From Nitrospira sp. LK70 (lineage in GTDB: Bacteria; Nitrospirota; Nitrospiria; Nitrospirales; Nitrospiraceae): 58,447 nucleotides of DNA. Under the pieces are notes generated by a model, which saw only the letters and a program-made list of their open reading frames with translations, was not told the DNA's origin and did no database searches. Both the position numbers and the translations under genes were made by a program. Below are positions 3,744-16,347 of the stretch, one piece after another (positions within the stretch are counted from its first letter, which is position 1; each line of letters opens with the position of its first letter). The stretch lies in assembly GCA_011090425.1 (NCBI GenBank), contig PHGD01000015.1:1-58447 (forward strand), read 5' to 3'.

Positions 3744-5300
3744 GTGTTCACCATGCGGCGTTTCACCGTAGGGCACCAACATATCTGCAATCATGACACG
3801 GTTGTTGGAGCAGCCGACTTCCAGTGGAAAGTCGTGCTTTGGGAATCCCAATCTGATCGGCTGAGGCTCATCGAACGCGTGGTGACAGAGTGCGGTGCTC
3901 ATCCCTGTTGTGTCGAGCAACTAGTCGATATTGAACAGGTCGCTCGTTCGCCCTGTTGCGCTGCAGTGGTCGCGCTAGGAAAGTATCAGACAGATGATAC
4001 CTTGGCCTCAAAAGCTGTCAGCTGTATGAAGCAGGCGGGATTGACCGTGCTCGCTCATGAACGAGGTACTCGTTCTTGGCCGGTGGGCATACGGTGCCGA
4101 GCTTTATTGGCCGGGGCCTCGTGTGTCCTCGACAGTGAAGAGGATGGTTTTGGGCCGGAGTTACAGCGAATTCTGACAAGTGTTCTGAGGCAGAAAACAT
4201 GTGAAACTGTGGAAAAAGAGCACAATCATGCGCTCATGAAAACCTTCGGCATCGAGGGAGAAAGCCATGCGATAGAGGACGCATTTCGACAGGCTTTGAG
4301 GGTCGTGAGTTTCAGCGATTTAGCCGTGCTGATCACCGGAGAGTCTGGAACAGGGAAGGAACTGATGGCACATGCCATTCATCAGCTTGACCCAAAACGC
4401 CGGACTGGTCCGTTCGTGGCGATCAATTGCGGAGCGCTCAGCCCGGGTCTCATTGAAAGTGAATTGTTCGGTCACAGCAGGGGAGCCTTTACCGGCGCAG
4501 ATCGAGATCGAAAGGGATTGATTCGCGCGGCAGATGGGGGCGTGCTCTTCTTGGACGAGATTGGAGAACTGGGCAGTGACGTGCAGGTCAAGCTCCTGCG
4601 AGTGCTGCAAGACCGCCGAATCATGACGGTCGGCACTGATCACGATGTGGGCGTGGACCTCCGAGTGATCGCCGCCACGAATCGTAATCTGGAACTGATG
4701 ATGCAGCGGGGACAGTTCCGGGAAGATCTGTTTCACAGATTGAACACGCTGTCCGTGCATCTTCCACCGCTCCGGGAGCGAGCAGCAGACCTCGAACCGT
4801 TGATCGGTAACTTTCTCACGAAGTATCGATCGGCTGCGAGATCAAGGACCACTTCGATCGATCGTGACTTTCTCGAGGCGCTCGCTCAATTAGACTTTCC
4901 CGGTAATGTGAGGCAACTCGAAAACATTGTCCGACGCGCCCTCGTCAATAAGGTAGACGATACGCCACTCAGCTTAAGTGATCTTTCTCCGGAGATATGG
5001 CGGCAGCTCTGTCAGCCAAGACCGGCGAGCATTGAACCACCGAGTCTCAACTCCCCCATGACTCCCGCACATGCCGATCTACCGCCCTCGCTCTCGGATT
5101 GTGTGGCGAGCCTCTGGACGCAATCGAGTCCTCAGGAATGGAACCTTGCGTGTGTGGTGGGGCATTGTGAACGGATGCTGATAGAAGAGGCGTTGAAATG
5201 TGCGCAAGGGAATCATTCTTTAGCCGCACGAGCGTTAGGAATCACGCCTCGCACGCTCTACAACAAATTGAAGAAGCACCATCTCGCCCAGGGAACGTAA
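3744..5300 (+). CDS. Sigma-54-dependent transcriptional activator with a degenerate receiver domain
   Basis: This enhancer-binding protein of about 518 residues would open sigma-54 promoters by ATP hydrolysis. Residues about 25-155 resemble a response-regulator receiver but lack the acidic pair and the phospho-acceptor Asp (the strand reads Ala-Ala-Val-Val-Ala-Leu-Gly). The AAA+ core has Walker A Gly-Glu-Ser-Gly-Thr-Gly-Lys-Glu, the sigma-54 contact loop Gly-Ala-Phe-Thr-Gly-Ala and Walker B Leu-Phe-Leu-Asp-Glu-Ile-Gly. A Fis-type HTH closes the protein (Ala-Ala-Arg-Ala-Leu-Gly-Ile-Thr-Pro-Arg-Thr-Leu-Tyr). The start may be GTG 3744 or ATG 3753. It directly precedes the large same-strand cluster and a candidate sigma-54 site, so it is the likely regulator of that cluster; the signal is unknown. 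Confidence 0.93.
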   Translation: MFTMRRFTVGHQHICNHDTVVGAADFQWKVVLWESQSDRLRLIERVVTECGAHPCCVEQLVDIEQVARSPCCAAVVALGKYQTDDTLASKAVSCMKQAGLTVLAHERGTRSWPVGIRCRALLAGASCVLDSEEDGFGPELQRILTSVLRQKTCETVEKEHNHALMKTFGIEGESHAIEDAFRQALRVVSFSDLAVLITGESGTGKELMAHAIHQLDPKRRTGPFVAINCGALSPGLIESELFGHSRGAFTGADRDRKGLIRAADGGVLFLDEIGELGSDVQVKLLRVLQDRRIMTVGTDHDVGVDLRVIAATNRNLELMMQRGQFREDLFHRLNTLSVHLPPLRERAADLEPLIGNFLTKYRSAARSRTTSIDRDFLEALAQLDFPGNVRQLENIVRRALVNKVDDTPLSLSDLSPEIWRQLCQPRPASIEPPSLNSPMTPAHADLPPSLSDCVASLWTQSSPQEWNLACVVGHCERMLIEEALKCAQGNHSLAARALGITPRTLYNKLKKHHLAQGT

Positions 5301-5442
5301 CCCGAATCCCTCCGAACATTCTGCTGCACACGTCGATTTGTCTCGACTGCGACCATTCCGTCACTGGCTCGCCTCACGGTATCTCTGTATCTCACCTGTC
5401 GCATCGTACCATGCGGAAAAGATCTTCCAGGTCTGAGCTGAC

Positions 5443-5461
5443 CCTTTCCGGAAAGGTTTTT
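5443..5461 (+). terminator. Candidate rho-independent terminator after the activator gene
   Basis: CCTTTCCGGAAAGG (5443-5456) can fold as a 5-bp stem with a 4-base loop and is followed directly by TTTTT (5457-5461). The stem is short, so termination would be partial, but the position between the activator and the cluster fits separate transcription units. Confidence 0.4.
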
Positions 5462-5557
5462 CTTCGCTTCTCCCCCTCCACAGATCGTTTCGGGCGCCAG
5501 GTGGCGCAACACAATGTTTTTCAATCAATGAGCGCCGGCAACGAGCTGTTCTTGCCG

Positions 5558-5573
5558 TGGCATGTCGGCTGCT
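5558..5573 (+). promoter_or_regulatory. Candidate sigma-54 promoter of the 5.6-16.3 kb cluster
   Basis: TGGCATGTCGGCTGCT matches the sigma-54 consensus TGGCACG-N4-TTGCW with two changes and keeps the essential GG (-24) and GC (-12) separated by 10 bases. Transcription would begin near 5584. This lies about 260 bases after a sigma-54 activator gene and just before the first cluster gene. If real, it makes GTG 5602 rather than GTG 5557 the start of that gene. Confidence 0.5.
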
Positions 5574-5601
5574 AGATGCCTTCATAGAGGACGAGAAGAT
5601 T

Positions 5602-5844
5602 GTGGCTATCGAAGGATTCCGTTTTTTATTGAATCGGTTCGTGCGCTTCAAAGTGAGCGATGTCACCATCCCTGCTCCTCAAACAGTCGTCACTGAACTG
5701 TATGGTGGAGACATCGTGCAAGGGAAGGTTGTTGATATCACGGAGAGCGGAACCCAGGAGCAAGCGTTCATTGTTGTGAAGGTGGATGCCATGAAGGACT
5801 TTCTCATTCTTCCCGCAGAGAAAGTGATTGGAATCACGGACTAG
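5602..5844 (+). CDS. Small protein of unknown function, first gene of the cluster
   Basis: A protein of about 80 residues (95 if it starts at GTG 5557). It alternates short hydrophobic strands with charged turns (Phe-Val-Arg-Phe-Lys-Val, Gly-Lys-Val-Val-Asp-Ile, Ala-Phe-Ile-Val-Val-Lys-Val, Phe-Leu-Ile-Leu-Pro-Ala-Glu-Lys-Val-Ile-Gly-Ile), suggesting a small beta-barrel. GTG 5602 is preferred because the candidate sigma-54 promoter overlaps the earlier start and GAGG lies upstream. It is followed 39 bases later by the transglutaminase-like gene. No family is recognised. Confidence 0.6.
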   Translation: MAIEGFRFLLNRFVRFKVSDVTIPAPQTVVTELYGGDIVQGKVVDITESGTQEQAFIVVKVDAMKDFLILPAEKVIGITD

Positions 5845-5883
5845 TGAGCGAAGTGTGACAGGGAGATCCTGAGGGAGCGACAC

Positions 5884-6996
5884 GTGAATCAAACGATGAA
5901 TGGCACGAAATCGAGTGGGCCGTGCCGATGCAAAACCATGAGTGATTTGCCCGGCGCGAATCTCAAGTTGAGTAGAAAACATGCTCCGTCCACACAGAGG
6001 TACACGCCGTTACCGTTCACCTCGCCGAAGATCACTCTCGGGCATATCCCGACTGGTTGGCGCGGCACGGAAAGAACGGTTGAGCATGTACAGGCGCTGA
6101 TTCGGTCCGGAGCGAGAGATTTTTATGTACGTCAGAAGGCCATCGATATCTTGCTGGAGAAACCTGTCAAGCCCAAAGACTACTTGGGGGAGATTCAGGC
6201 CCTCTTCGAATGGGTCCAGCGGCATATTCGGTATACCAAGGATACGTTTCAGGTGGAGGTGCTTCATTCGGCGCGGCGCATGCTGGAGTTGCGGGCCGGC
6301 GATTGCGACGACATGACCATACTCCTGGGAGCAATGTTGGAGGCCATCGGTCACCCAGTGCGGCTGGTCCTCAGCGGACCGGACCCGCTCAAACCGGACC
6401 TCTTCACCCATATTTATCTGGAAGTGTTTCACAAAGGCCGCTGGATTCCGCTGGACGCCACTATGCCCTATCCGATGGGCTGGGCGCCGAGCACAGTGGT
6501 GAAAAAGATCATTGCGATCGAAAGGAGGGCGAACATGATGGCCGAGGACATCGAACTGCAAGGCTTGAGCGACATCGGTGCCGTACCGGACTGGTTGAGG
6601 GGGCTGCTTCGGGCCGTGCGCCACGAAGCCCTGCAGCCCAAAGACACGAGAGTGAAGTCCCTCTGGGATCTGCTGCGGCAGCGGCAATTGCTGCAGCGAA
6701 GCCCATGGCTCAGGGCGGTCTTACGCCGTGTCTGGGACCGTGGGTTGTCCGCTCGACCTCATCCACGTACCGCGAGACGGATAAAAATACGATTGCGGCA
6801 TTGGCGGATCTTGCCGCCGATTGCAGTGAGTGCGGCGGCCTATCGTCCGGCAGGCATACGCGCGAGAGCCCAATCTGCTGTCCAGCCGGCTCGACCTGTG
6901 ATGCTTAAGCCAGTCGCGTCGGTACGGCCTGTGGCCATGCAGCCGGTGCAGCCCGTACAGATGAAGCCGGTAGGTATGAAGGCAGCGGCGAAATGA
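5884..6996 (+). CDS. Transglutaminase-like (cysteine protease fold) protein
   Basis: This 370-residue protein has a transglutaminase-like core at about residues 95-215. The catalytic Cys is in Gly-Asp-Cys-Asp-Asp-Met, the His in Thr-His-Ile-Tyr-Leu-Glu-Val, and the Asp in Leu-Asp-Ala-Thr. Such domains cross-link proteins or cleave peptide bonds. There is no signal peptide. After the core come a short segment Glu-Asp-Ile-Glu-Leu-Gln-Gly-Leu (like the motif repeated in the acidic protein downstream), a basic helical region, and a tail of Pro-Val/Lys-Pro-Val repeats. GTG 5884 follows GAGGG. Its stop overlaps the next start by 4 bases, so the two are translationally coupled. It may process or cross-link other cluster products; this is inference. 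Confidence 0.8.
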   Translation: MNQTMNGTKSSGPCRCKTMSDLPGANLKLSRKHAPSTQRYTPLPFTSPKITLGHIPTGWRGTERTVEHVQALIRSGARDFYVRQKAIDILLEKPVKPKDYLGEIQALFEWVQRHIRYTKDTFQVEVLHSARRMLELRAGDCDDMTILLGAMLEAIGHPVRLVLSGPDPLKPDLFTHIYLEVFHKGRWIPLDATMPYPMGWAPSTVVKKIIAIERRANMMAEDIELQGLSDIGAVPDWLRGLLRAVRHEALQPKDTRVKSLWDLLRQRQLLQRSPWLRAVLRRVWDRGLSARPHPRTARRIKIRLRHWRILPPIAVSAAAYRPAGIRARAQSAVQPARPVMLKPVASVRPVAMQPVQPVQMKPVGMKAAAK

Positions 6997-7358
6997 GCTG
7001 CCGATGTCAGACATGTTCCGGTAATGGTGGCGATAATTCATCGCTTGTGGGGGAAATCTTTGAGGCGATACCAATGGAGAGCGTGCAGCAAGGAATGGCT
7101 CTCTACCGAGGGTTCAATGGCTTTGAACCGGCTCAGGTCGTGAAAGTTCATCATCACAGAGTGATCCCGCCGGTGGTGGTGGAGCTGGGTGAATTGGTGG
7201 GTCTGATGTATCGCTCTGATAAGGGGCAACCAGGTCAACCTCAAACCTACATTCACCGGATGGACGACCCACCGCGTCTGGTCAGCAACATTGAGGGAAC
7301 GCAACTCTACATCGTGGGTGGCAGTTATCAGGTCACTCCACGAGGGATTGAGGGCTAG
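6993..7358 (+). CDS. Small Cys- and His-containing protein of unknown function
   Basis: This 121-residue protein starts at an ATGA overlap with the gene before. It begins Met-Ser-Cys-Arg-Cys-Gln-Thr-Cys, a metal-binding-like cysteine cluster, and has a His-His-His stretch in the middle. The rest is predicted beta-rich (Pro-Pro-Val-Val-Val-Glu-Leu-Gly-Glu-Leu-Val-Gly-Leu). No family is recognised. It is part of the cluster and followed 10 bases later by the next gene. Confidence 0.7.
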   Translation: MSCRCQTCSGNGGDNSSLVGEIFEAIPMESVQQGMALYRGFNGFEPAQVVKVHHHRVIPPVVVELGELVGLMYRSDKGQPGQPQTYIHRMDDPPRLVSNIEGTQLYIVGGSYQVTPRGIEG

Positions 7359-7368
7359 GGGGAGTGAC

Positions 7369-7686
7369 ATGAGAAGTGACCAACAGCTCGGGCTGGATGA
7401 ATTGATGATCGTGAACCCCAGTTCTGCAAGGACCGACATTATGTTTCTGAGTGACGATGGAACCTTGTACCAGGTTCAAGGCCTGGGTGGAGAACGTGCA
7501 GTGAAGGGATTGGGACAATGTTTTCTGGGCGAAGATGGGTCGCTCTATCAGGTACAGGGCTTCGAAACGGACAGTTCGGAAGAGCCAGCTAACCCTTCAG
7601 GCGAAAAACTGCAAGCAGAAGGCAGCCCTGCAGCCGGCCAATATTTCCTCGGGGCAGACGGGACGTTATACGAGGTTGTCAGATAG
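7369..7686 (+). CDS. Small protein with three DG-[TS]-LY-[QE] repeats
   Basis: This 105-residue protein starts at ATG 7369 after AGGGGGAG. It carries three copies of a module of the form Phe-Leu-x-x-Asp-Gly-[Thr/Ser]-Leu-Tyr-[Gln/Glu]-Val, at about residues 26, 53 and 96. The first two are followed by Gln-Gly-[Leu/Phe]. The same module appears in the large repeat protein at 8390-9346. Between copies are Gly-Leu-Gly elements. There is no signal peptide or membrane segment. Function is unknown; a shared interaction module within one assembly is the natural inference. Confidence 0.75.
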   Translation: MRSDQQLGLDELMIVNPSSARTDIMFLSDDGTLYQVQGLGGERAVKGLGQCFLGEDGSLYQVQGFETDSSEEPANPSGEKLQAEGSPAAGQYFLGADGTLYEVVR

Positions 7687-7717
7687 GCGCTCATTATTAC
7701 GAATAAAGGAGGTTGCT

Positions 7718-8362
7718 ATGGCAAAGGTTCAAGGCATGAAAGAAAAGTTTCACTCGCCCTTATTCGATGCCTTCTTCGTGAAGGACGAAGATAGGACCGG
7801 AGGAGGGAAAAAAAAGTTCACAGACTTTATGACAGATCCACGGGTTATTCGCTTCTTTGTGGATATTCAGAACAAGACCAAACTGGAAACAAATATGCAG
7901 GCATCGGGTGTCTTGCCTAGCTTGAATACCTTCGAGGCACGCGCTTTGCGCGTGGTGGTCTCCAGTCTCCATCGTTTTAGCCCCAAAAGGAGCAAAGCGG
8001 ATGAGCTCCAAGCTGAGCGCAACGAGGCTGAGATCCTTGCTGATCTGATCTACAACTCAGTCACGTCTTTGATCGTGGGTGAAAAGATCATGATCGAAAT
8101 GCCCACCTTCTGGTTTCCATCCGGCGCTGGTGTCAGTCCTGGCCTCACCGTCTCCAACCACGGTGAACCTGACCCGACCGCGACATTCCGCTTCGCGGAA
8201 CCGGTGTATATCGAGCCGCAGCAGGGCTTCCGAGTCGAGATGGCATTCCCTCAGGGTGTCCCAGGAGTAAGTCCGGTAGACGATCAAAAATTGGCTCATG
8301 TGACGGGCCCGCTTCGGATCTGGGTCGTGCTGGATGGCTATCTAACCCGCGATGTTCAGTAA
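7718..8362 (+). CDS. Candidate structural protein of the cluster, unknown fold
   Basis: This 214-residue protein starts at ATG 7718 behind a consensus AAAGGAGG site, implying strong translation. It has a Lys/Asp-rich N-terminus, then an apparently beta-rich body with aromatic strands (Pro-Thr-Phe-Trp-Phe-Pro, Val-Tyr-Ile-Glu-Pro-Gln-Gln-Gly-Phe-Arg-Val-Glu-Met-Ala-Phe) and a closing strand Leu-Arg-Ile-Trp-Val-Val-Leu-Asp-Gly-Tyr-Leu. That ending resembles the Ala-Glu-Leu-Phe-Ile-Val-Leu-His-Gly-Tyr end of the protein at 9450-10112, so the two may be distant relatives. No signal peptide is present. A capsid or shell role is a guess from strong translation and beta content only. Confidence 0.75.
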   Translation: MAKVQGMKEKFHSPLFDAFFVKDEDRTGGGKKKFTDFMTDPRVIRFFVDIQNKTKLETNMQASGVLPSLNTFEARALRVVVSSLHRFSPKRSKADELQAERNEAEILADLIYNSVTSLIVGEKIMIEMPTFWFPSGAGVSPGLTVSNHGEPDPTATFRFAEPVYIEPQQGFRVEMAFPQGVPGVSPVDDQKLAHVTGPLRIWVVLDGYLTRDVQ

Positions 8363-8389
8363 CCGGCGAAATCATATAGGAGGCGAACC

Positions 8390-9346
8390 ATGCAGTACTT
8401 GAGTGAAGACCAAGCAACCCAGATGATGGGCATGGGCTACATCGGCGAGGTGCGGCAGGGGCCTGATGGGAATCTCTATCAGTATGTGCAGGGGGTGGAC
8501 GGGCTGGGCAATCCTCTGGGCTTCTGGCGCAGGTTGAAGCGGTTGGCTCGCCGTGTCGTCCGCAAGGCGCTGCCCATAGCGCAACAATTCGCTCCATTTA
8601 TTCCAGGCGGGACTGCGGCGCTCACGGCCGTGACTCCATTCCTCAAACAGGCCGGAGTCGCCGGGCAAGATGGTATCGGCGCTCTCTATCAGGCTCCCGA
8701 TGGCACCCTGTACCAGGAGGTCCAGGGTGTAGCCGAAAACGAGGAGCTTCGGGGGTTAGGAGAGGATGAGGTCGCACAGATGATGGGCATGGGCTACATC
8801 GGCGAGGTGCGGCAGGGGCCGGATGGGAATCTCTATCAGTATGTGCAGGGGGTGGATGGGCTGGGCAATCCTCTGGGCTTCTGGCGCAGGTTGAAGCGGT
8901 TGGCTCGCCGTGTCGTCCGCAAGGCGCTGCCCATAGCGCAACAATTCGCTCCATTTATTCCAGGCGGGACTGCGGCGCTCACAGCAACGACTCCGTTCCT
9001 AAAACAAGCCGGCGTTGCAGGCTACGAAGGCTTGGACGAGGATGAAGAACTGCGAGGACTGGACGAAGATGACGAACTGCGTGGACTTGATGAAGACGAC
9101 GAATTGCGTGGTCTCGATGAGGATGAAGAACTCCGCGGTCTGGAGGCGGACGACGAGCTACAGGGCCTTGCCGAAGATGACGACTTGCGCGGAGCCGGAG
9201 AAGATCAGGAGATGCAAGGCGTTGATGGCTATATCCGGCAGAATACTATGAGTGGATTAGAGGCCTATGTGCCGCAGGAGCCTCCGCAGACTCGCTGGCA
9301 CGTGACCCCCGCCCAGCCGCCGGAGGTGTGGAAACCACTGTGGTAA
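8390..9346 (+). CDS. Large internally duplicated protein with acidic ELRGL repeats
   Basis: This 318-residue protein has three parts. A unit of about 119 residues occurs twice: a DG-N-LY-Q module, then a Trp-Arg-Arg-Leu-Lys-Arg basic helix, then Ala-Leu-Pro-Ile-Ala-Gln-Gln-Phe-Ala-Pro-Phe-Ile-Pro-Gly-Gly and an Ala/Thr-rich hydrophobic stretch, the best candidate for a membrane-active helix. Seven tandem 9-residue acidic repeats of the type DEDDELRGL follow (residues about 216-278). A Pro/Trp-rich tail ends Lys-Pro-Leu-Trp. ATG 8390 follows TAGGAGG. A basic amphipathic unit coupled to an acidic repeat block suggests a scaffold or self-masking arrangement. Function is unknown. Confidence 0.8.
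   Translation: MQYLSEDQATQMMGMGYIGEVRQGPDGNLYQYVQGVDGLGNPLGFWRRLKRLARRVVRKALPIAQQFAPFIPGGTAALTAVTPFLKQAGVAGQDGIGALYQAPDGTLYQEVQGVAENEELRGLGEDEVAQMMGMGYIGEVRQGPDGNLYQYVQGVDGLGNPLGFWRRLKRLARRVVRKALPIAQQFAPFIPGGTAALTATTPFLKQAGVAGYEGLDEDEELRGLDEDDELRGLDEDDELRGLDEDEELRGLEADDELQGLAEDDDLRGAGEDQEMQGVDGYIRQNTMSGLEAYVPQEPPQTRWHVTPAQPPEVWKPLW
8420..8982 (+). repeat. Near-identical 206-base direct repeat inside one gene
   Basis: Bases 8420-8625 and 8777-8982 are the same except for about two to three substitutions, with a 357-base offset. Similarity continues more weakly to about 8666 and 9023. The high identity at synonymous sites points to a recent duplication or ongoing gene conversion within the coding sequence. 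Confidence 0.9.
9035..9223 (+). repeat. Seven tandem 27-base repeats encoding acidic nonapeptides
   Basis: In frame the units read DEDEELRGL, DEDDELRGL, DEDDELRGL, DEDEELRGL, EADDELQGL, AEDDDLRGA and GEDQEMQGV. The first four are nearly uniform and the last three decay, so the array probably expands and contracts at its 5' side. Confidence 0.9.
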
Positions 9347-9449
9347 GCCGAGTGACAAGATGCCCCATCCTGCATCTCGGACAGGCGCTCTGTGTGACCA
9401 TCATACGAGATGCCTGTGATGTGGGACGAGGGGGTAGGAGGTACAGACG

Positions 9450-10112
9450 ATGCGATTAGGATTGGGTCAAGACCAGCAACCGGTCCCCACACGATCAGTG
9501 CCGGACATGATGCAGCCGTCGGTGGCATCGCCAACTACCAAAGAGATTCCATACGACTATGTGGCCAAGTTCACGTTGAAAGGAGAACGCGGCAATCGTG
9601 TGCAGGATGTGATCAACATCAGCATCGAGGGCGCATTCATCGCAACGGCCATCGGCTATAGCTTTGTCCCCGCTAAGTTGCCAGATTTGACGGGAACTCT
9701 CACTGTACTCAGCTCAGCAACGAGTGACAGCGTGGCCTTGTTGATCAACAGTCTTCTATCTTTGGAAGACAAGAACGATCCACGCATGTTTGCGCAGTGT
9801 CTACTCGTGAAACTCTGCGGAATCGACTTCAAGTACAGCATCGTCGATAGCGGGAGCGGCCGCGAGTTGCAGAATCAGCCGATCCATAATATCGCGGGGC
9901 TCGGTGAGGCAACCGGGGAACGGCCGTTCCGTCCCCTGGCCAAACCGATGCTGTTCACGCCCCGCTCGACTGTCCGTATCGAGGTCGAAGAAATTTCGGT
10001 GGGACCTATTTATGGTTATGAGGATCAGCTGACCAAACAGCGTGTTGGTGCTGAGCTCTTCATCGTGTTGCACGGCTACAAGATTTTGGGCTATGGAACG
10101 GGGTTGTCATGA
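9450..10112 (+). CDS. Candidate structural protein of the cluster, unknown fold
   Basis: This 220-residue protein starts at ATG 9450 after GTAGGAGG. It begins Met-Arg-Leu-Gly-Leu-Gly-Gln, another Leu-Gly-type N-terminus of this cluster. It appears beta-rich, with a body of alternating hydrophobic residues (Val-Ile-Asn-Ile-Ser-Ile-Glu-Gly-Ala-Phe-Ile) and an Ile-Ala-Gly-Leu-Gly-Glu element near residue 150. It ends Ala-Glu-Leu-Phe-Ile-Val-Leu-His-Gly-Tyr-Lys-Ile-Leu-Gly, similar in pattern to the end of the protein at 7718-8362. The stop overlaps the next start (ATGA), indicating coupled expression. No known family is recognised. Confidence 0.75.
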   Translation: MRLGLGQDQQPVPTRSVPDMMQPSVASPTTKEIPYDYVAKFTLKGERGNRVQDVINISIEGAFIATAIGYSFVPAKLPDLTGTLTVLSSATSDSVALLINSLLSLEDKNDPRMFAQCLLVKLCGIDFKYSIVDSGSGRELQNQPIHNIAGLGEATGERPFRPLAKPMLFTPRSTVRIEVEEISVGPIYGYEDQLTKQRVGAELFIVLHGYKILGYGTGLS

Positions 10113-10603
10113 ACGCCAACCATGCGTGCGCTGTTCATCGGGACGTCGGTTATTCCAACCTGTGCCAAGTCTGCGGCATTCCCATGGACGCCGGGTATTT
10201 CGATGTCGCAAGCATCAAAGCGGCGCCACCGGTTGGAAAAGAAGTCGAACTCGCTCGCTACCAGCTACACCCTCAGTATTGCGGGACATTGCTGTATTTC
10301 ATGCAATATGCGGAAGAATCGACAACAAACAAGCAAGTGCTCTCGAACACGCCAGGGTACGAATGGCTGATCCTTTGCAACAATCAGCCGCGGGCGCCCT
10401 ACTTGCCTACGAGCCTCATCTTGAACCCATGGGGCTATAACTCCCTTCCGATCCATTTGAGGTTGGAAGAGGGCTGTACGCTGAGGTTCGTCGTGAGAAG
10501 AGTCGCGGCTATCGTGTCGCCGGAGTTGTCGCAAGTGGGAGGCCGGCTCCTCGGCCGTTCCTGGTACAACACCATCTATGGAGGAATACCGAATCGTTTG
10601 TGA
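10109..10603 (+). CDS. Protein with an N-terminal cysteine cluster, unknown function
   Basis: This 164-residue protein overlaps the preceding gene by 4 bases. The first 30 residues carry Cys-x(n)-His and Cys-x2-Cys pairs (Cys-Ala-Val-His-Arg; Leu-Cys-Gln-Val-Cys-Gly), which could bind zinc. The remainder is predicted beta-rich with several aromatic residues (Leu-Leu-Tyr-Phe-Met-Gln-Tyr; Trp-Gly-Tyr-Asn-Ser-Leu-Pro-Ile-His-Leu-Arg-Leu). It may form a complex with the 9450-10112 product, given the coupling. The family is unknown. Confidence 0.7.
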   Translation: MNANHACAVHRDVGYSNLCQVCGIPMDAGYFDVASIKAAPPVGKEVELARYQLHPQYCGTLLYFMQYAEESTTNKQVLSNTPGYEWLILCNNQPRAPYLPTSLILNPWGYNSLPIHLRLEEGCTLRFVVRRVAAIVSPELSQVGGRLLGRSWYNTIYGGIPNRL

Positions 10604-10629
10604 GCTCGTTCTCTAAGAGGAGGTTCAAT

Positions 10630-11460
10630 ATGTACATCAAAACCGATGGAGGTTTAGGACTAGCCCCAATGCTAGATGGTCCTATTGCCGGTCTTGGTGC
10701 TGCCAGGAAATGGGTGCATCGCCGGCGACCTCGCTCTGGATCTGGACGTGCGCCGAGCCGCACGGCTGGTCTCGGCGGATTCGGTGCGCCAGTGTTCGAC
10801 GTGCAGTGTCCCGACCCGCCTGGCTGCGCGCCGGGGGTTGATGCAGCCGGATGCCGTGCCGCCATACGTGCCGCGGTGCGGGAAGCGATCAGGCTGGCGA
10901 ACAACGCCGCAAACAAACTCGAGGCCGCGATCGCGGTACCACCCGCTTCACGCGACGCGGACGCCCAACGAACCGCGAAGCGCTTCAAGTTCTTTTTCCG
11001 CCATGACCCAGCACATGCGATCAAGTGGGCAGGACATGAGGAGTCTGGCGTCAGCGTCGCCAAACGGTTTCGAGCAGTGGCAAAGGAATTGGACGGCGGG
11101 CGGCGAGTGGTTTTTCATTGCCGGCCGACGAGGGTTCCCTGTGCCGATACGGACCTGACGTGCTGCCCGGCGGATGTGAACGCCTGGTTCAGCACAGACG
11201 TGCAAAACGGGGTCAACCTGTGTGATGGCTTCTGGAATCCCCCAACGGACTTGCCGCCAGGACTTCCAGTCCGGAGTTTCCGTGCTGCGATCATCATCCA
11301 CGAGATGCTGCACATGCTCTTCGAACATCTCCGTGACGTGGGTCAGGGCAGGATCAGAGCGGCCTGCTATGAAGCCTTCGCCTTGCGTGCGGCGGGCATT
11401 CCGGCTGACCGGTTTGATGTCTGCCAATGCCGCGGCACCGTGCCATGCCCGCCACCATGA
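10630..11460 (+). CDS. Zinc metallopeptidase (HExxH) with the MYIKT-GGLG N-terminal signature
   Basis: This 276-residue protein starts at ATG 10630 behind a perfect AGGAGG. The zinc site is Ile-Ile-Ile-His-Glu-Met-Leu-His-Met-Leu (HExxH, near residue 222). It is preceded by a Cys-rich region with Val-Asn-Leu-Cys-Asp-Gly-Phe-Trp and followed by Ala-Cys-Tyr-Glu-Ala-Phe-Ala-Leu. That layout recalls deuterolysin (M35)-like or lysine-specific metallo-endopeptidases. The N-terminus is not a signal peptide: it reads M-Y-I-K-T-D-G-G-L-G, then Ile-Ala-Gly-Leu-Gly-Ala and an Arg-rich stretch. Neighbouring hydrolase genes begin similarly, suggesting a shared sorting or assembly tag. The substrate is unknown. 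Confidence 0.8.
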   Translation: MYIKTDGGLGLAPMLDGPIAGLGAARKWVHRRRPRSGSGRAPSRTAGLGGFGAPVFDVQCPDPPGCAPGVDAAGCRAAIRAAVREAIRLANNAANKLEAAIAVPPASRDADAQRTAKRFKFFFRHDPAHAIKWAGHEESGVSVAKRFRAVAKELDGGRRVVFHCRPTRVPCADTDLTCCPADVNAWFSTDVQNGVNLCDGFWNPPTDLPPGLPVRSFRAAIIIHEMLHMLFEHLRDVGQGRIRAACYEAFALRAAGIPADRFDVCQCRGTVPCPPP

Positions 11461-11588
11461 GCAAGCGTGAGGATGATGTGCGCCTGTCAATTCTCATTGA
11501 TCGGGCGGCAACCAGGCTGATGGCGTCCGTTGCCGAGCAGAAAGTAGAAGGGGAAAGACCATGTACATCCGGACTGGTGGAGACTTAG
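11457..11588 (+). CDS. Possible 43-residue coupled small protein
   Basis: An ATG at 11457 overlaps the stop of the metallopeptidase gene (ATGA), and the frame stays open for 43 codons, past the start of the next gene. The peptide is a plausible charged helix (Arg-Leu-Ser-Ile-Leu-Ile-Asp-Arg-Ala-Ala-Thr-Arg-Leu-Met). There is no separate Shine-Dalgarno site, so it would rely on coupling. It may equally be a chance frame. Confidence 0.3.
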   Translation: MSKREDDVRLSILIDRAATRLMASVAEQKVEGERPCTSGLVET

Positions 11589-12724
11589 GGAGGCTCTCAA
11601 CCTCATACCTTTATGATTCTTCGATAAGGGGGGTTGGGGAGCCATCGCGCAAGCCAGTTCTACTGACCCATTATCACGTGAGGAAGTATTTGGATCCTGC
11701 TTCGCTGGCGCTGCTGTCGGACCCCGACGCCAGCATCATGACGGCCGCACAGATGAAGCCGGGCTTCGTGGATGACCCACGGCGCGTGAGCCTGCAGAGG
11801 GAACTGACGACGCTGGTCCATGGCAAGTATCTAGCGGCGGTGTCGCCCAAGGTACAGTTGCGGATTGCTCTCGTGGATCTGACGGAGGTAAAGCACCACA
11901 CGCCGATCTTCGCCGGCTTCTCGGCGTGGAACCGGAGCGACCCGGGAGAAGGAGCGACAATGGAAGGGGACAGTCTCCCCAAGATCCTTGCGCTGTACGC
12001 GGTCTACCAGTTGCGCTTCGACTTGAACATCTTTGCCAAGCTCAATAACATCGCCAGAGGCAGTGCGTTGCAGACCGCCATAGAGAAGGAGTGGAAGAAG
12101 GCGGGGCTCCAGTCGCAGCCCGGTCTTACAAAGCTGTTCCAGTTCACGGAAAAGGATGGTAGCCCGGTGGAGGCAAGGCTACGGCGAACGCCGGCAGTAC
12201 ATGGCAACTGGGACGCGCGCGCCCTCATCGTTGCCTTGGGCTTCGAGTACATCGGCTCAGTAGCACTGCAATCGGGCCTCTTCGACGAAAAGCACGGCGG
12301 CTTGTGGTTGAGGGCCGCCTATGAAAAGCCGGCGCTCACCTGGTGGGGCAGTCCGTTCCCAACACTGCCCCGTCATAGTGCCACAGCTTATGCGGCGGCA
12401 ACCTTCTTTACACTGCTGGCTCAGGGGCGCCTAGTGAATCAGGCGTCGTCGAACGAAATCGCCAACGTACTGAAGTCGCGGCAGTGCATGGAAAATGGCC
12501 TTCTCGCTGGAGTGAAGCAGCTTCCGGGCGCGCCGCCGGCGTCGGCCAATAAGTGCGGGCTTGTTCGTCCTCGTTATCACGATGCGATCCACGTGATCCG
12601 CCAGCCTGCGGCAGGAAAACGGCTGGAGTATGTCGCGGTGGTCCTTTCCGAAGAACCTCCGGAACTGGACTTCACCGCCCTGGGGAAGGACCTGGACAAC
12701 ATTATTGAGAAGCAGAATCCCTGA
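11561..12724 (+). CDS. SxxK serine-hydrolase-like (beta-lactamase fold) protein with MYIRT-GGDLG N-terminus
   Basis: This 387-residue protein starts at ATG 11561 after AGGGGAAAG. Residues about 140-150 contain Gly-Asp-Ser-Leu-Pro-Lys-Ile-Leu-Ala-Leu-Tyr, the Ser-x-x-Lys motif at the start of the long helix in penicillin-binding-protein/beta-lactamase-fold enzymes, preceded by a phenylalanine-rich strand. A later segment Ser-Ala-Thr-Ala-Tyr could supply the second motif, and no clear Lys-Thr-Gly was found. No signal peptide: the N-terminus is M-Y-I-R-T-G-G-D-L-G, matching the flanking metallopeptidase and amidase. A peptidoglycan- or D-amino-peptide-directed activity is inferred from fold and neighbours. 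Confidence 0.65.
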   Translation: MYIRTGGDLGRLSTSYLYDSSIRGVGEPSRKPVLLTHYHVRKYLDPASLALLSDPDASIMTAAQMKPGFVDDPRRVSLQRELTTLVHGKYLAAVSPKVQLRIALVDLTEVKHHTPIFAGFSAWNRSDPGEGATMEGDSLPKILALYAVYQLRFDLNIFAKLNNIARGSALQTAIEKEWKKAGLQSQPGLTKLFQFTEKDGSPVEARLRRTPAVHGNWDARALIVALGFEYIGSVALQSGLFDEKHGGLWLRAAYEKPALTWWGSPFPTLPRHSATAYAAATFFTLLAQGRLVNQASSNEIANVLKSRQCMENGLLAGVKQLPGAPPASANKCGLVRPRYHDAIHVIRQPAAGKRLEYVAVVLSEEPPELDFTALGKDLDNIIEKQNP

Positions 12725-12739
12725 TAATGAGGCCTCTCC

Positions 12740-13816
12740 ATGTATCTTCGCTATGCGCACGGACTGGGGCGGGCTGCCGCAGTGACAACCATCACCAGCC
12801 CGGACAGCAGGCTGGTCAAGCAAGTGACTCCAGCAGCCCTCTGCGGGGTGTGGCGCAGCGGTGGCGCTCCTAAAGTGCGCGGCTGGCCCAGCATTACCCA
12901 TGTAGTCATCCATACCCTGATCGGGTCCGCCGCCACCACGATCCGGCACTGGCATGGCGGACAAAACTGCCTTCCACCCCATTACGTGATCGACAAGAAC
13001 GGCGAGATCACCCAGATGGTCGCCGAACGCTACTACGCTCAGCACGTCGGGACGGCCAACACCTATTCGATTGGCATCGAACACGAAGGGGGTTGCTACA
13101 ACACCCCAGCGTGCTTCTCCGAGTCTCTGTATCAGGCCTCGGCCGCTCTGGTGCGAGATATCTGCGAACGGCAAAAAATTCCCAAAGACCGCGCACACAT
13201 CATCGGTCACGACGAAGCGCCCGGTACAGGCCACGGCGACCCAGGCGGCTACTGGGATTGGGATTACTACATGGCTTTGCTCCAATGGGACGGCCGCACA
13301 GCCAGCCTAAAACCGCAGCGCATCGTGCTGGATTACAATTCTCTCTTCACCTTCCCACTTACGGCCAACTGGAACGAGGGTGTGCGTCTACCAGTCAAGT
13401 GGGGTCCCGGGCACGAGCAGAGTTATGCCGCTAAATATTATTATGCAGAGGCCGACCCAGTGGCCAAAGAAGATGACGCCGTCGAATACTCTGGTGCAAT
13501 CACTGACAGCGGCCAGTGGATACTCTCCGCTTGGTGGCCGGTGTTGCGCGGTAGTAACACTGCGGCGCTCATCAACGTCGCTACCACCAACCGTGATCCA
13601 GCCCAGCGCTCTTTCTCCGGGACCTACGACCAAAGCGCGCGCGGACTCATGGCGCGGCAGACAGCGGCTTTGTACTCAACGCACACCTGGATGCCGGTCC
13701 ACACTTTCACGCTGAACACTGGTGACGGCGTCAGGATCTCGGTTTCACGGCGCAGCAGCGCGCGCGGCAGGGTCATCGCCGATGCGTTTCGCTTGCTAAA
13801 AACTGGCTCGTTGTAG
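12740..13816 (+). CDS. N-acetylmuramoyl-L-alanine amidase (Amidase_2) with golvesin-like C-terminal domain
   Basis: This 358-residue protein would cleave the amide bond between muramic acid and the stem peptide. The Amidase_2 domain spans about residues 45-190: Val-Val-Ile-His-Thr, Tyr-Val-Ile-Asp-Lys-Asn-Gly-Glu-Ile, Ile-Gly-Ile-Glu-His-Glu-Gly, and Ile-Ile-Gly-His-Asp-Glu-Ala with a late Gly-His-Gly-Asp-Pro-Gly zinc segment. Residues about 210-355 form a beta-sandwich like the golvesin/xanthan-lyase carbohydrate-binding unit, ending Ile-Ala-Asp-Ala-Phe-Arg-Leu. The N-terminus M-Y-L-R-Y-A-H-G-L-G replaces a signal peptide and resembles the tags on the two hydrolases upstream. ATG 12740 has GAGG upstream. 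Confidence 0.85.
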   Translation: MYLRYAHGLGRAAAVTTITSPDSRLVKQVTPAALCGVWRSGGAPKVRGWPSITHVVIHTLIGSAATTIRHWHGGQNCLPPHYVIDKNGEITQMVAERYYAQHVGTANTYSIGIEHEGGCYNTPACFSESLYQASAALVRDICERQKIPKDRAHIIGHDEAPGTGHGDPGGYWDWDYYMALLQWDGRTASLKPQRIVLDYNSLFTFPLTANWNEGVRLPVKWGPGHEQSYAAKYYYAEADPVAKEDDAVEYSGAITDSGQWILSAWWPVLRGSNTAALINVATTNRDPAQRSFSGTYDQSARGLMARQTAALYSTHTWMPVHTFTLNTGDGVRISVSRRSSARGRVIADAFRLLKTGSL

Positions 13817-13825
13817 GAGATACCC

Positions 13826-14155
13826 ATGTATATTGACGGTCTACAAAGCAACAGTCAGACACAGAATCTGAGTGTAACGCTCGGTGTCTCTGCGGCATCT
13901 GGCGCAGCTCCGGCGCTGAGCGCTGCTGCCTTGAAGAAGGCAGTCACTGTGAATCGGGTCTATGCCCGCATGATCGGCTGGAGGAATTATACGAGCCAGA
14001 TCGCAGTTCGCCTGGGCATTACCACGAAGAACCCGGATGTCTGGAGCTTCGTCCAGGCCCTCGCCAACTGGCAAGCGCGCAACATGATGAAATCGCCCGA
14101 CGGCATTCTAGGACCGGAATGGTATGACCTGCTGACGCGGAATCGTCGAGCTTGA
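13826..14155 (+). CDS. Small protein with a possible peptidoglycan-binding ending
   Basis: This 109-residue protein starts at ATG 13826 after GTAGGAG. It begins M-Y-I-D-G-L, a shorter form of the cluster's N-terminal pattern. Its last 45 residues (Trp-Ser-Phe-Val-Gln-Ala-Leu-Ala-Asn-Trp-Gln, then Ser-Pro-Asp-Gly-Ile-Leu-Gly-Pro-Glu-Trp-Tyr) have the Asp-Gly-Ile-x-Gly-Pro-x-Thr/Trp layout of peptidoglycan-binding domain 1. It lies between the amidase and an exported-fibre-like gene, consistent with a wall-targeting accessory. Confidence 0.6.
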   Translation: MYIDGLQSNSQTQNLSVTLGVSAASGAAPALSAAALKKAVTVNRVYARMIGWRNYTSQIAVRLGITTKNPDVWSFVQALANWQARNMMKSPDGILGPEWYDLLTRNRRA

Positions 14156-14209
14156 AGACACCGAGTTGTTTTCGTCAAGGACAACACGTTGAATTACAGG
14201 AGAACCACG

Positions 14210-14740
14210 ATGTCTACTATTGCAATCACATCACACGACGGCAAGCTCAGCGCTGCATCGGCAGTTCTTGAAGTGAGTGCCACCAATCCGAACTATAACC
14301 AACCCGTGTTGCGGATCAAACAAGCCGGTACCAGCGGAGGGGCGGCCTCTATAAGGATCGATGACCCGAATCCCGACATCGAGTTTGTTGAGACGGGCTT
14401 AACGGGTCCTGATCCCGGAGCCGGGAAGTTCGAGATTGCCGTTCAGGCGGACCAACTCCAGATCAACGGCCGCAACGCCGAGGTCGGTTCCGACAAAGGC
14501 TTCGATAACATCGTCGCCCTTACCCGACCGGCAGCAGGTGGCAACATCGGAATCGGGTTTCCGGAAGCCAAAGACTACAAGAGGTTTGGAGGAGGAAAGG
14601 GTGTCATCGTGATCGCAAATGCCACTGTGGCTCCTTCCCCATCCAAGAAGCTCGCCGGCGCGGGAATTTTGTATGTTGAGGATGGAGCGCTCAAGTATAT
14701 GGGTTCGGAGGGAACGGTGACGGAGATCGCCCCTGCTTAA
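14210..14740 (+). CDS. Beta-rich fibre-like protein of unknown function
   Basis: This 176-residue protein starts at ATG 14210 behind ACAGGAG (an earlier in-frame TTG at 14189 lacks such a site). It is low in cysteine and rich in Gly, Ala, Thr and Asn, with a repeated strand-turn pattern (Gln-Pro-Val-Leu-Arg-Ile-Lys-Gln-Ala-Gly; Ala-Ser-Ile-Arg-Ile-Asp-Asp; Gly-Asn-Ile-Gly-Ile-Gly). It ends Ala-Gly-Ile-Leu-Tyr-Val-Glu-Asp-Gly-Ala-Leu-Lys-Tyr-Met-Gly-Ser-Glu-Gly-Thr-Val-Thr. This style is common in phage tail-fibre and spike proteins, where each repeat is a strand of a trimeric helix. That comparison is a pattern judgement, not a family match. Confidence 0.6.
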   Translation: MSTIAITSHDGKLSAASAVLEVSATNPNYNQPVLRIKQAGTSGGAASIRIDDPNPDIEFVETGLTGPDPGAGKFEIAVQADQLQINGRNAEVGSDKGFDNIVALTRPAAGGNIGIGFPEAKDYKRFGGGKGVIVIANATVAPSPSKKLAGAGILYVEDGALKYMGSEGTVTEIAPA

Positions 14741-14757
14741 TCGAAAGGAATGGGACC

Positions 14758-16347
14758 ATGAAGCGCAAAACAAGAGACGCCCATCAAAAATCATCGTCTC
14801 GCGCTCAGCGCGTCGTTCCCTTCATCTGGCCCCTCAGCAAGAGCTCCACGCCGGACGAGATGAACACGTCCTTCGGTCCGCGTATCGACGCGGATCGCTG
14901 GGATTTCCACGACGGCATCGACCTGCCCGCTCCCGTCGGCACGCCAGTCCATGCCATGGCGGACGGCATCGTGCAGCGCGCTGGGCCAGCGGATAAGACC
15001 GAGTCGGGCCAAGGTTTCGGCTCAACCCATATCATTCTCAAGGTCGTTGATCCGATCGACGGGAAGGATGACCTATTCCTTGTCTATCTCCATCTCGACA
15101 GCATCGCGGAGGGGGTGATCCCAGAGGCAGAGGTGAAGCAGGGCAACATCATCGCCGCGGTGGGTCAAGAAGATGCGACCTATCCTCATCTTCATTTCGA
15201 GTTCAGAAAGGGTGAGGAACCTAAACCAGAAAACAGTGTGCACCCGTTGCGCTATCTGGGCTGCCCCAACACAGCGAACTTCAGGCAGCTCCGTCTGGAC
15301 CGCTGTAATTTCTCTGGCACGAATGGTGAGAAGAGAGCGGTGCGACTTCCCTTTGTCGTCCGGAACCGTCGGGAAGGCGATGTGCAAGGCGTTGATGTGT
15401 CGTTGAAGGGCGAAGGAATAGAGCCTCGGACGCTTCACGTCGACTTCGATGACCGGAACACCATCAATAGTGACAAGGGGGACGACAAGGCTTTCAAGAA
15501 TGGAATTGCTGTGGAAGGCTACCAGAAATCCAATCTGAAGGGAGCGGGATTGCGCGTGCTGCACTATGGCGTGCTGGTCAAGGACATCGTTCCCGAATAC
15601 GAATCCGTGGAATTGCGAGTCCTGGATGTCAAGAATGAGAAACCGAAAAGCGCCAAGTTCCTTCTGCCGAAACTCGAAGTAGGCGAAAGTCCCATCTATA
15701 GCCGTGCAAATTTCGAAGAGGGGGAAACATTCCCGCCGCAGGGGTGGGAATTATCTCTCTTATCGGGCAATGTCTGCAGACCGGACGCCGTTCCCACAGG
15801 CGGCCGCACCTTACTCTGCCAGGATCTTCAGAGTTTGCCAGAGGCATTGATCCGTGCTGGGCTGCGCTTCGCCTTACCCGTCGAGGGCTCGCGTATCCTC
15901 CCCATGTCCTGGCGCTTGAAGGCAAATATCCACCCCAAGGAACTTGATATGGACAAGGGACTGGTGATTCATCCATTGGCGTTCCTGGCGGGCAACGATG
16001 TGGTCGCGGCTGCCTGCCTGCGGAAGATCGGGGGCAATACATTCGTCGCAGGCGTCTTGATTCGCAGCGCGGACGGCTTGTTTCGTGAACGAATCGATGT
16101 GAGTGAGGGAGAGATATTCCTGGATGAATCGGTCAGTTGGGAGCTTGAGCTGCTACGATTAGGCACCCGGCAAACGACTGCGGTATTGCGACTGAGCAAC
16201 AACGTCGTGGCCCGCATCAACGGCGACACCACGAACGTCGAGCCTGATGCCGCTTGCGTCGGGATACTGCATAGGCACGGGGGATTACAGATCACGCTGC
16301 ATGTCGATGAATTACGCCTGACGGAAGCGCCACGAAGATCTGGGTAA
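14758..16347 (+). CDS. M23-family metallopeptidase with long beta-rich C-terminal region
   Basis: This 529-residue protein is a LytM/lysostaphin-type peptidoglycan endopeptidase. The M23 domain occupies about residues 30-170: Ser-Phe-Gly-Pro-Arg, His-Asp-Gly-Ile-Asp-Leu (H-x3-D), Gly-Thr-Pro-Val-His-Ala-Met-Ala-Asp-Gly, then Leu-Val-Tyr-Leu-His-Leu and Pro-His-Leu-His-Phe-Glu (HxH), so all zinc and catalytic residues are present. The remaining 350 residues look like two beta-sandwich domains without a recognised family. There is no signal peptide, only a basic start (Met-Lys-Arg-Lys-Thr-Arg). It is the last gene of the cluster and meets convergent hpnE after 9 bases. Confidence 0.87.
   Translation: MKRKTRDAHQKSSSRAQRVVPFIWPLSKSSTPDEMNTSFGPRIDADRWDFHDGIDLPAPVGTPVHAMADGIVQRAGPADKTESGQGFGSTHIILKVVDPIDGKDDLFLVYLHLDSIAEGVIPEAEVKQGNIIAAVGQEDATYPHLHFEFRKGEEPKPENSVHPLRYLGCPNTANFRQLRLDRCNFSGTNGEKRAVRLPFVVRNRREGDVQGVDVSLKGEGIEPRTLHVDFDDRNTINSDKGDDKAFKNGIAVEGYQKSNLKGAGLRVLHYGVLVKDIVPEYESVELRVLDVKNEKPKSAKFLLPKLEVGESPIYSRANFEEGETFPPQGWELSLLSGNVCRPDAVPTGGRTLLCQDLQSLPEALIRAGLRFALPVEGSRILPMSWRLKANIHPKELDMDKGLVIHPLAFLAGNDVVAAACLRKIGGNTFVAGVLIRSADGLFRERIDVSEGEIFLDESVSWELELLRLGTRQTTAVLRLSNNVVARINGDTTNVEPDAACVGILHRHGGLQITLHVDELRLTEAPRRSG

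Follow-up and report, generated by a model that had tools for sequence, protein, structure and literature searches.

The 58,447-nucleotide stretch of Nitrospira sp. LK70 analysed here (contig PHGD01000015.1 of assembly GCA_011090425.1; hereafter the window) contains a forward-strand gene cluster at positions 3744–16347, in which conserved genes resembling virion genes of tailless viruses are followed by a block of unrelated enzymes. The products of this block share a short N-terminal tag that probably designates them as the cargo of a virus-like particle. The four cargo genes of the window and their tags, read from the sequence, are:

10630–11460, + strand: cargo 1, M35-like zinc metallopeptidase with a HEMLH motif (PF14521, E 1.9e-6, slightly below the family cut-off)
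10630–10659, + strand: cargo 1 tag, MYIKTDGGLG
11561–12724, + strand: cargo 2, SxxK / beta-lactamase2-type protein (PF13354, E 1.1e-5)
11561–11590, + strand: cargo 2 tag, MYIRTGGDLG
12740–13816, + strand: cargo 3, Amidase_2 with a golvesin-type domain (PF01510, E 1.3e-24; PF25275, E 3.6e-10)
12740–12769, + strand: cargo 3 tag, MYLRYAHGLG
13826–14155, + strand: cargo 4, small protein, possibly peptidoglycan-binding (PG_binding_1, E 0.13, sub-threshold)
13826, + strand: cargo 4 tag, only MYI (start MYIDGL)

The first-pass annotation of the window had pointed out the common start of these four genes, and all of them begin with M-Y-I/L, each behind a purine-rich stretch resembling a ribosome-binding site. 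The shared signature is present in the products of 10630, 11561 and 12740, whereas that of 13826 has M-Y-I only and lacks the G-L-G part. The enzyme bodies are, as had been described, unrelated: their Pfam families differ, and BLASTP of the bodies links none of the four.

Eight clusters of this kind could be read: the window, L005, L006 and L007, which are of the Nitrospira type, and L012, L013, L050 and L051, from Methylococcales. With a blind start rule applied to open reading frames (ORFs) of at least 100 codons, an MY[ILVMF] start is found in 27 of the 36 block ORFs, in none of 857 background ORFs (975 kb of genomes G000 and G633) and in none of the 167 ORFs outside the block in the same eight loci; the Fisher p of 3e-46 is overstated, since homologues recur. 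The nine misses comprise four antisense ORFs, L005 12444 (MYIYNRQ, where the rule misplaced the start), the probably spurious L006 15534 and three near-misses starting with MSYLYFRQERGLG, MFVFTSKDLG and MTVYIFASEGLGQ. The count omits L007 12313, the ORF of which extends beyond the block edge. In L050 and L051, obtained after the motif had been fixed, seven of eight cargo ORFs fit it.

A curated set of 32 cargos omits the antisense ORFs, L006 15387/15534, the short L006 14227 and the remnant L006 17567; its starts were picked with the tag in view, so that the blind count is the fair one. BLASTP of the bodies sorts the 32 proteins into 17 families, 16 of which have at least one member starting with MY[ILVMF] (15 if L050 14299 is read from an upstream ATG, MSMYL), while the remaining family starts with MSYLYFRQERGLG. 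Residue 2 is tyrosine in 29 of 32 cargos, compared with 5 of 857 background ORFs; a [GDE][LIVF]G tripeptide lies within residues 3–18 in 19 of 32 against 46 of 857. A Sec-type hydrophobic N-terminus, scored as a 12-residue hydropathy window above 1.39 within the first 60 residues, was found in 0 of 32 cargos, compared with 46.8% of the 857 background ORFs. Where tag residues are identical between families, they share the codon in 374 of 942 cases, with 355.5 expected from codon usage, and the tyrosine at residue 2 is encoded by TAC 15 times and by TAT 14 times. Codon agreement no higher than codon usage predicts indicates that the tag is kept at the protein level, with no recent DNA copying.

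The same start is nearly absent elsewhere. Besides the background counts given above, a DNA pattern for MY-aliphatic-x5-aliphatic-G produced 11 matches in genome G000, three in the cluster and eight outside it, two of the latter being plausible as starts of genes, one for an RNase Y-like membrane protein and the other for a dehydrogenase (both named by eye). Nor has the start been lost from the orthologous clusters, where it persists in front of changing enzymes. The backbone from 5884 to 10109 is common to all eight clusters, and the cargo block after it varies from cluster to cluster. L005 and L006 carry five or six tagged genes, and L013 has two cargos, at 12930 and 14852; the cargos of L050 and L051 are a C39-like peptidase, a small protein, a protein combining a peptidoglycan-binding domain with an HExxH string, and one more peptidase-like protein; others are OmpA-like, DUF2515 or proteins without a family match. 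The body of the metallopeptidase at 10630 is 96% identical in L007, and relatives of the 11561 protein in L005, L007 and L013 carry differing MY starts. A search of 115 other genomes for homologues of the amidase at 12740, tagged or untagged, found none at E 1e-20.

The OmpA-like cargos at L007:13429–14046 (Nitrospira) and L012:13225–13839 (Methylococcaceae) are 78% identical, a sign of exchange between phyla. Besides moving, cargo genes decay: L006:14227–14421 is a shortened tagged ORF with the start MYLETGLGQP, and L006:17567–17779 encodes a 70-aa remnant similar to a portion of the SxxK cargo in L005. Two cargos without a Pfam match, L012:13869–15389 and L006:12370–12924, have C-terminal parts resembling, by eye, OmpA-type peptidoglycan-binding domains. 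Across 16 gene pairs of the clusters dN/dS is about 0.03–0.3, indicating purifying selection.

The other genes of the cluster in the window are:

3744–5300, + strand: sigma-54-dependent activator, AAA+ with a Fis-type helix-turn-helix (HTH) domain (Pfam Sigma54_activat, E 1.9e-63; HTH_8)
5557–5844, + strand: small conserved protein (orthologues in L005, L006 and L011; no Pfam match above cut-off)
5884–6996, + strand: transglutaminase-like virion-type protein (Pfam Transglut_core, E 1.2e-12)
6993–7358, + strand: conserved small protein with a relative in a viral contig (hmmsearch match to L132 9288–9560, E 1.2e-7)
7369–7686, + strand: small protein with a repeated DG-x-LYQVQGLG-type motif (ORF list and orthologues; start assigned by count inside the 7291 ORF)
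7718–8362, + strand: candidate major shell protein 1 (214 aa), the best-conserved backbone protein, with orthologues in both phyla
8390–9346, + strand: repeat protein, candidate scaffold (two LYQYVQGVDGLG units and LRGLDEDEE repeats; alignment A4)
9450–10112, + strand: beta-rich protein, candidate shell protein 2 (begins MRLGLGQDQ; hmmsearch matches in three viral contigs)
10109–10603, + strand: cysteine-containing shell-type protein (hhalign to viral family F14)
14210–14740, + strand: conserved protein after the cargo block, fibre-like by eye (alignment A10, 83–86% identical)
14758–16347, + strand: untagged M23 peptidase, last gene of the cluster (PF01551, E 3.7e-18)

The activator at 3744 has a same-place orthologue in L005, L006 and L007; L012, L013, L050 and L051 have a different sigma-54-type activator, located, by eye, downstream. 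Orthologues of the 7718 protein are 71–88% identical in both phyla. In the repeat protein at 8390–9346 a unit of about 120 residues is duplicated internally, with LRGLDEDEE repeats after it, and the copies are near-identical in the window. In L050:10714–11790 the 9450-like frame is broken or mis-framed, the ORF list containing only out-of-frame pieces. The 14210-type gene belongs to the Nitrospira-type clusters, and none was seen in those of Methylococcales; in L007:16325–19590 it is duplicated about a truncated M23 gene (160 aa), upstream of the intact M23 gene.

Four backbone proteins beside the tagged block, encoded at 5884, 6993, 9450 and 10109, are related to proteins of tailless viruses. 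Among 50,697 phage records, the transglutaminase-like protein of 5884 matches two, both of them gp34 of Salisaeta icosahedral phage 1 (SSIP-1; E 2e-6, hhalign probability 97.9), which is annotated as a structural protein in its record. A profile of the eight cluster transglutaminase-like proteins detected 14 IMG/VR contigs at 28–41% identity, several of them 33–38 kb long, and hhalign aligns the 5884 protein with viral family F0 at E 9e-36. Further relatives of the backbone were sought among 436 proteins of these contigs and of SSIP-1. The 6993 protein matches that at L132 9288 (E 1.2e-7), and the 9450 protein that at L142 3971 (E 2e-7), with weaker matches in L143 and L132. Matches to the 10109 protein occur in four contigs (best hmmsearch E 2e-5), and hhalign relates it to F14 (probability 94, E 1.5e-7).

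The gene order of contig L132 is that of the cluster, with a transglutaminase-like gene at 6334, a 6993-like gene at 9288, a member of family F2 at 10307 (215 aa) and a 9450-like gene at 11023. Its transglutaminase-like gene was seen as a tblastn match, another frame covering part of it in the ORF list. This contig also encodes a viral family B polymerase and a phage lysozyme. The 7718 protein corresponds in position and length to F2 of L132, and the two have a similar C-terminal VVLDG-x-L motif. As to major-capsid homology, the 9450 and 10109 proteins match viral-contig proteins that are themselves putative capsid proteins, and the 7718 protein remains below significance. A search with the 9450 protein returned nothing from viral contigs, phages and plasmids; no 7718 orthologue was found in phages and plasmids, and no transglutaminase-like protein in plasmids. 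SSIP-1 gp46 retrieved only SSIP-1 itself when searched against viral contigs. In PHROGs the backbone proteins gave only weak hits, most of them for the repeat protein at 8390, and ten viral-contig proteins had no family.

The clusters are sparsely distributed. Within the family, four of the 175 genomes encode the 9450 protein, and in a 395-genome sample of the phylum the 7718 profile has matches in three. This profile also detects seven loci in the GTDB species collection, by a method that detects near relatives only, and their taxa we take to be Nitrospira, another Nitrospiraceae bacterium and three Methylococcaceae. The transglutaminase profile matched 2 of 198 genomes of the phylum, both cluster-bearing. 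The cluster is present in 5 of 311 genomes of Methylococcales, the order to which G461 (Methylomonas methanica) belongs, and a Pseudomonadota sample added only a genome already known (1 of 398). G103 and G108 are congeneric with the window genome, and L013 is the culture-collection strain Methylomonas methanica NCIMB 11130. By eye, the clusters are flanked by ordinary chromosomal genes, which differ between clusters.

The tag resembles G-L-G motifs of the structural proteins, namely LYQVQGLG in 7369–7686, LYQYVQGVDGLG in 8390–9346 and MRLGLGQ at the start of the 9450 protein, and the cargo may therefore mimic a contact of this structural kind. G[LMI]G occurs 8 times against 2.1 expected in the 7369–7686 protein (five orthologues) and 24 times against 5.2 in the repeat protein (four orthologues), where Y-x(3,5)-G[LIV][GAE] is also frequent (9 against 1.5; four orthologues). 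The virion-side ORFs of 10 viral contigs contain 69 G[LMI]G, compared with 38.1 in shuffles, and the other 160 ORFs of those contigs are not enriched (23 against 29.2 expected). In 11 SSIP-1 structural proteins G[LM]G is found 7 times against 2.5 expected (p 0.0145), including RGMG in gp34, RGLG in gp37 and PGMG in gp53. No enrichment was found in the clusters' transglutaminase-like, 6993, 7718, 10109, 14210 or M23 proteins. These counts cover 10 of the 14 viral contigs, exclude SSIP-1 gp43 and pool homologues, and are therefore indications only.

We favour, with some reserve, the interpretation that the cluster encodes a host-controlled, tailless-virus-derived particle, loaded via an N-terminal docking tag with exchangeable, mostly wall-active enzymes. 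The genes at 3744–16347 would be a chromosomal descendant of the virion-assembly module of an SSIP-1-like tailless virus, the packaging ATPase and replication genes of which would no longer be nearby. They probably build a protein particle, perhaps a membrane-containing one. The tag, M-Y-[aliphatic]-x(3-5)-G-L-[GAE]-[Q] over about the first ten residues, would be a docking signal for a shell or scaffold component and would place the enzymes of the block in or on the particle. The structural proteins of this lineage may carry a G-L-G contact or processing motif, of which the clusters would have placed a version preceded by MY-aliphatic on enzyme N-termini. The recognisable cargo folds are mostly cell-wall-acting, and the likeliest use would therefore be a particle freed by lysis that attacks or opens neighbour cells. 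The sigma-54 activator would control the cluster, as suggested by gene position only; the sigma-54 promoter consensus was not found in seven of eight loci, and L051 has two matches.

The tag had been proposed at first pass to be a targeting peptide for packaging or attachment. Neither of the two outcomes then named as refuting this was seen: the start is almost missing from the rest of the genome and persists in the orthologous clusters. Packaging is in part independently supported, because the tagged block adjoins relatives of virion proteins and the cargos have no Sec-type N-terminus; nothing points to sortase-like attachment.

Several results weigh against the particle interpretation. A hold-out profile of 14 tags from three other clusters, searched in six frames on whole genomes, found only the gene at 10630, at E 1.84 among noise, and recovered none of the Methylococcales cargos; its failure indicates that the motif is degenerate, and position-specific counts were relied on instead. 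A 23-row profile detected 23 cluster sites at E ≤0.014, but it contained its own targets; it found none in four control Nitrospira genomes and four weak sites (E 0.7–2.2) elsewhere. Five cargos with an MYIY or MYLW start have no nearby G-L-G, and the M23 peptidase at 14758 carries no tag. An MY start is found in 0 of 310 ORFs of the viral contigs, so this part of the tag was not inherited from those viruses. Scores of the 7718 profile against viral proteins are not significant, its identity being a matter of position and one motif. Relatives of the 6993, 9450 and 10109 proteins were sought in contigs picked by their transglutaminase-like gene, and direct scans of viral contigs with alignments A1, A6 and A7 found none. 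AlphaFold on four-row alignments gave an unusable model of the 7718 protein (pLDDT 29.8) and a beta sandwich of poor confidence for the 9450 protein (pLDDT 51.5). Particle assembly, tag binding, load and target are all deduced here from genes.

The 9450 model matched capsid proteins, such as P23-77 VP16/VP17, in BFVD and, by VIA-align, in the PDB, but also many unrelated beta sandwiches. The tool warns that such scores may reflect a common arrangement only, and no fold is drawn from them. Searched by sequence against solved structures, alignments A5 and A7 returned nothing and A6 one chance-level row (E 1.5).

Alternatively, G-L-G could be a maturation-protease site after which the transglutaminase-like protein of 5884, acting as a cysteine enzyme, cuts virion and cargo proteins, the MY start being a short pro-peptide removed at assembly. 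Some cysteine proteases have a transglutaminase fold, and G[LM]G recurs in SSIP-1 and viral-contig proteins; cleavage is, moreover, compatible with docking and not exclusive of it. However, the best-kept tag residues, Y2 and the aliphatic residue 3, lie several residues from the putative cut, and a number of cargos have no G-L-G. We consider this explanation unlikely.

Equally doubtful is a defective or satellite provirus that still packages DNA or depends on a helper for its packaging, with the enzymes as ordinary virion-associated lysins. Such an element would have the relatives of a virion module seen here, the amidase and the M23 peptidase would suit entry or lysis, and the sparse distribution (4/175 family genomes, 5/311 Methylococcales) agrees with it. 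One double-jelly-roll virus group is said, in the available text of a 2018 survey of such viruses, to be without a dedicated packaging ATPase (PMC5894146). On the other hand, tblastn with the SSIP-1 gp40 ATPase and the L132 polymerase gave no hit at E 1 in the eight loci of 20–58 kb, the rest of the genomes lying outside that search, and no integrase was seen by eye among cluster ORFs. Chromosomal neighbours vary between clusters, the genes are intact and under purifying selection in two phyla, and several unrelated cargos are swapped between clusters.

That a surface fibre or appendage, rather than a closed shell, bears the tagged enzymes is very improbable: the poor 9450 model is about equally similar to capsid proteins and to Ena endospore-appendage subunits (Z 6.6 and 6.2 for the latter), but such Z scores do not rise above the noise level given for models of this kind, and tailless-virus-like contigs hold relatives in the same gene order. 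A leader-peptide role of the tag was ranked low; the GG pair of a double-glycine leader occurs in a few tags only (10630, 11561, L006 12370 and L007 12313), and no ABC exporter was seen in the clusters by eye. Hardly credible is a translation-initiation or recombination feature of 5' ends with no protein role, which the similar purine-rich stretches before the starts and the swapping of cargos as units would fit, but not the codon agreement at the level of codon usage or the absence of MY starts from the 167 other genes of the same loci.

Among known systems, SSIP-1 is the closest in its transglutaminase-like structural protein gp34, the structural genes gp45 and gp46 of about 210 residues in its virion region, and the G-L/M-G motifs of its proteins. 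It differs in having the ATPase gp40 and a whole viral genome, whereas the cluster loci have no gp40 match but include a variable, exchangeable set of enzymes with the tag. The available text on SSIP-1 describes a membrane-containing phage, reportedly with two capsid protein types (PMC6356626).

Encapsulin cargo is recognised by a short peptide, usually C-terminal. The first-pass annotation compared the tag with such cargo peptides; a shared peptide is present on 17 unrelated families, as a putative loading signal at the N-terminus. As to the shell, the 7718, 9450 and 10109 proteins have no Pfam or PHROG family, the 7718 model is unusable, and nothing here indicates an HK97 fold. In the available text of a review of recruited mobile elements, encapsulins are shells encoded in bacterial chromosomes, of likely virus origin, with the HK97 fold and diverse cargo, and the words jelly-roll and tailless are absent from that text (PMC8987985). 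A virus-derived shell in the chromosome with diverse cargo would be common to both; the clusters differ in giving no indication of HK97, in the N-terminal position of the tag and in having several unrelated cargos at each locus.

The available text on the Photorhabdus virulence cassette reports N-terminal signals, of 50–70 disordered residues, that load varied effectors encoded beside structural genes with the aid of the AAA ATPase Pvc15 (PMC11495950). Extracellular contractile injection systems resemble the clusters in placing N-terminal signals on differing effectors beside structural genes. No tail, sheath, tube, baseplate or loader family was found in cluster proteins (Pfam; PHROGs for ten proteins), and the sole AAA protein of the cluster is the sigma-54 activator. 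Gene transfer agents and tailocins are host-controlled phage-derived particles that come from tailed phages, unlike the cluster module, which matches tailless viruses. No described system of this kind was found in the open literature searched, which is no proof of absence in print.

Outside the cluster, the window contains a Phd/YefM antitoxin and ParE-type toxin pair upstream, at 1409–1892, and, at 40848–43466, a large protein with a possible role in defence, which by eye begins with a TIR-like part, continues with an AAA-type ATPase and ends in a part resembling formylglycine enzymes.

More tentatively than the particle itself, we propose that the clusters represent a new class of delivery particle derived from the shell module of a tailless membrane-type virus, a host-regulated, genome-free capsid for which a ten-residue tag alone would select the load and whose wall-attacking arsenals would be exchanged between nitrite oxidisers and methanotrophs. 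To our knowledge, the known domesticated virus shells and phage-derived delivery devices all come from tailed phages (HK97 shells and tails). If the proposal is correct, tailless-virus modules would be a second source of domesticated shells and carriers, and the N-terminal tag, at ten residues, would be remarkably simple for a loading signal. Tag and position together point to proteins without a recognised fold as probable effectors. The occurrence of the clusters in nitrite-oxidising Nitrospira and in methanotrophs, including the culture-collection strain of Methylomonas methanica, opens the idea to bench testing.

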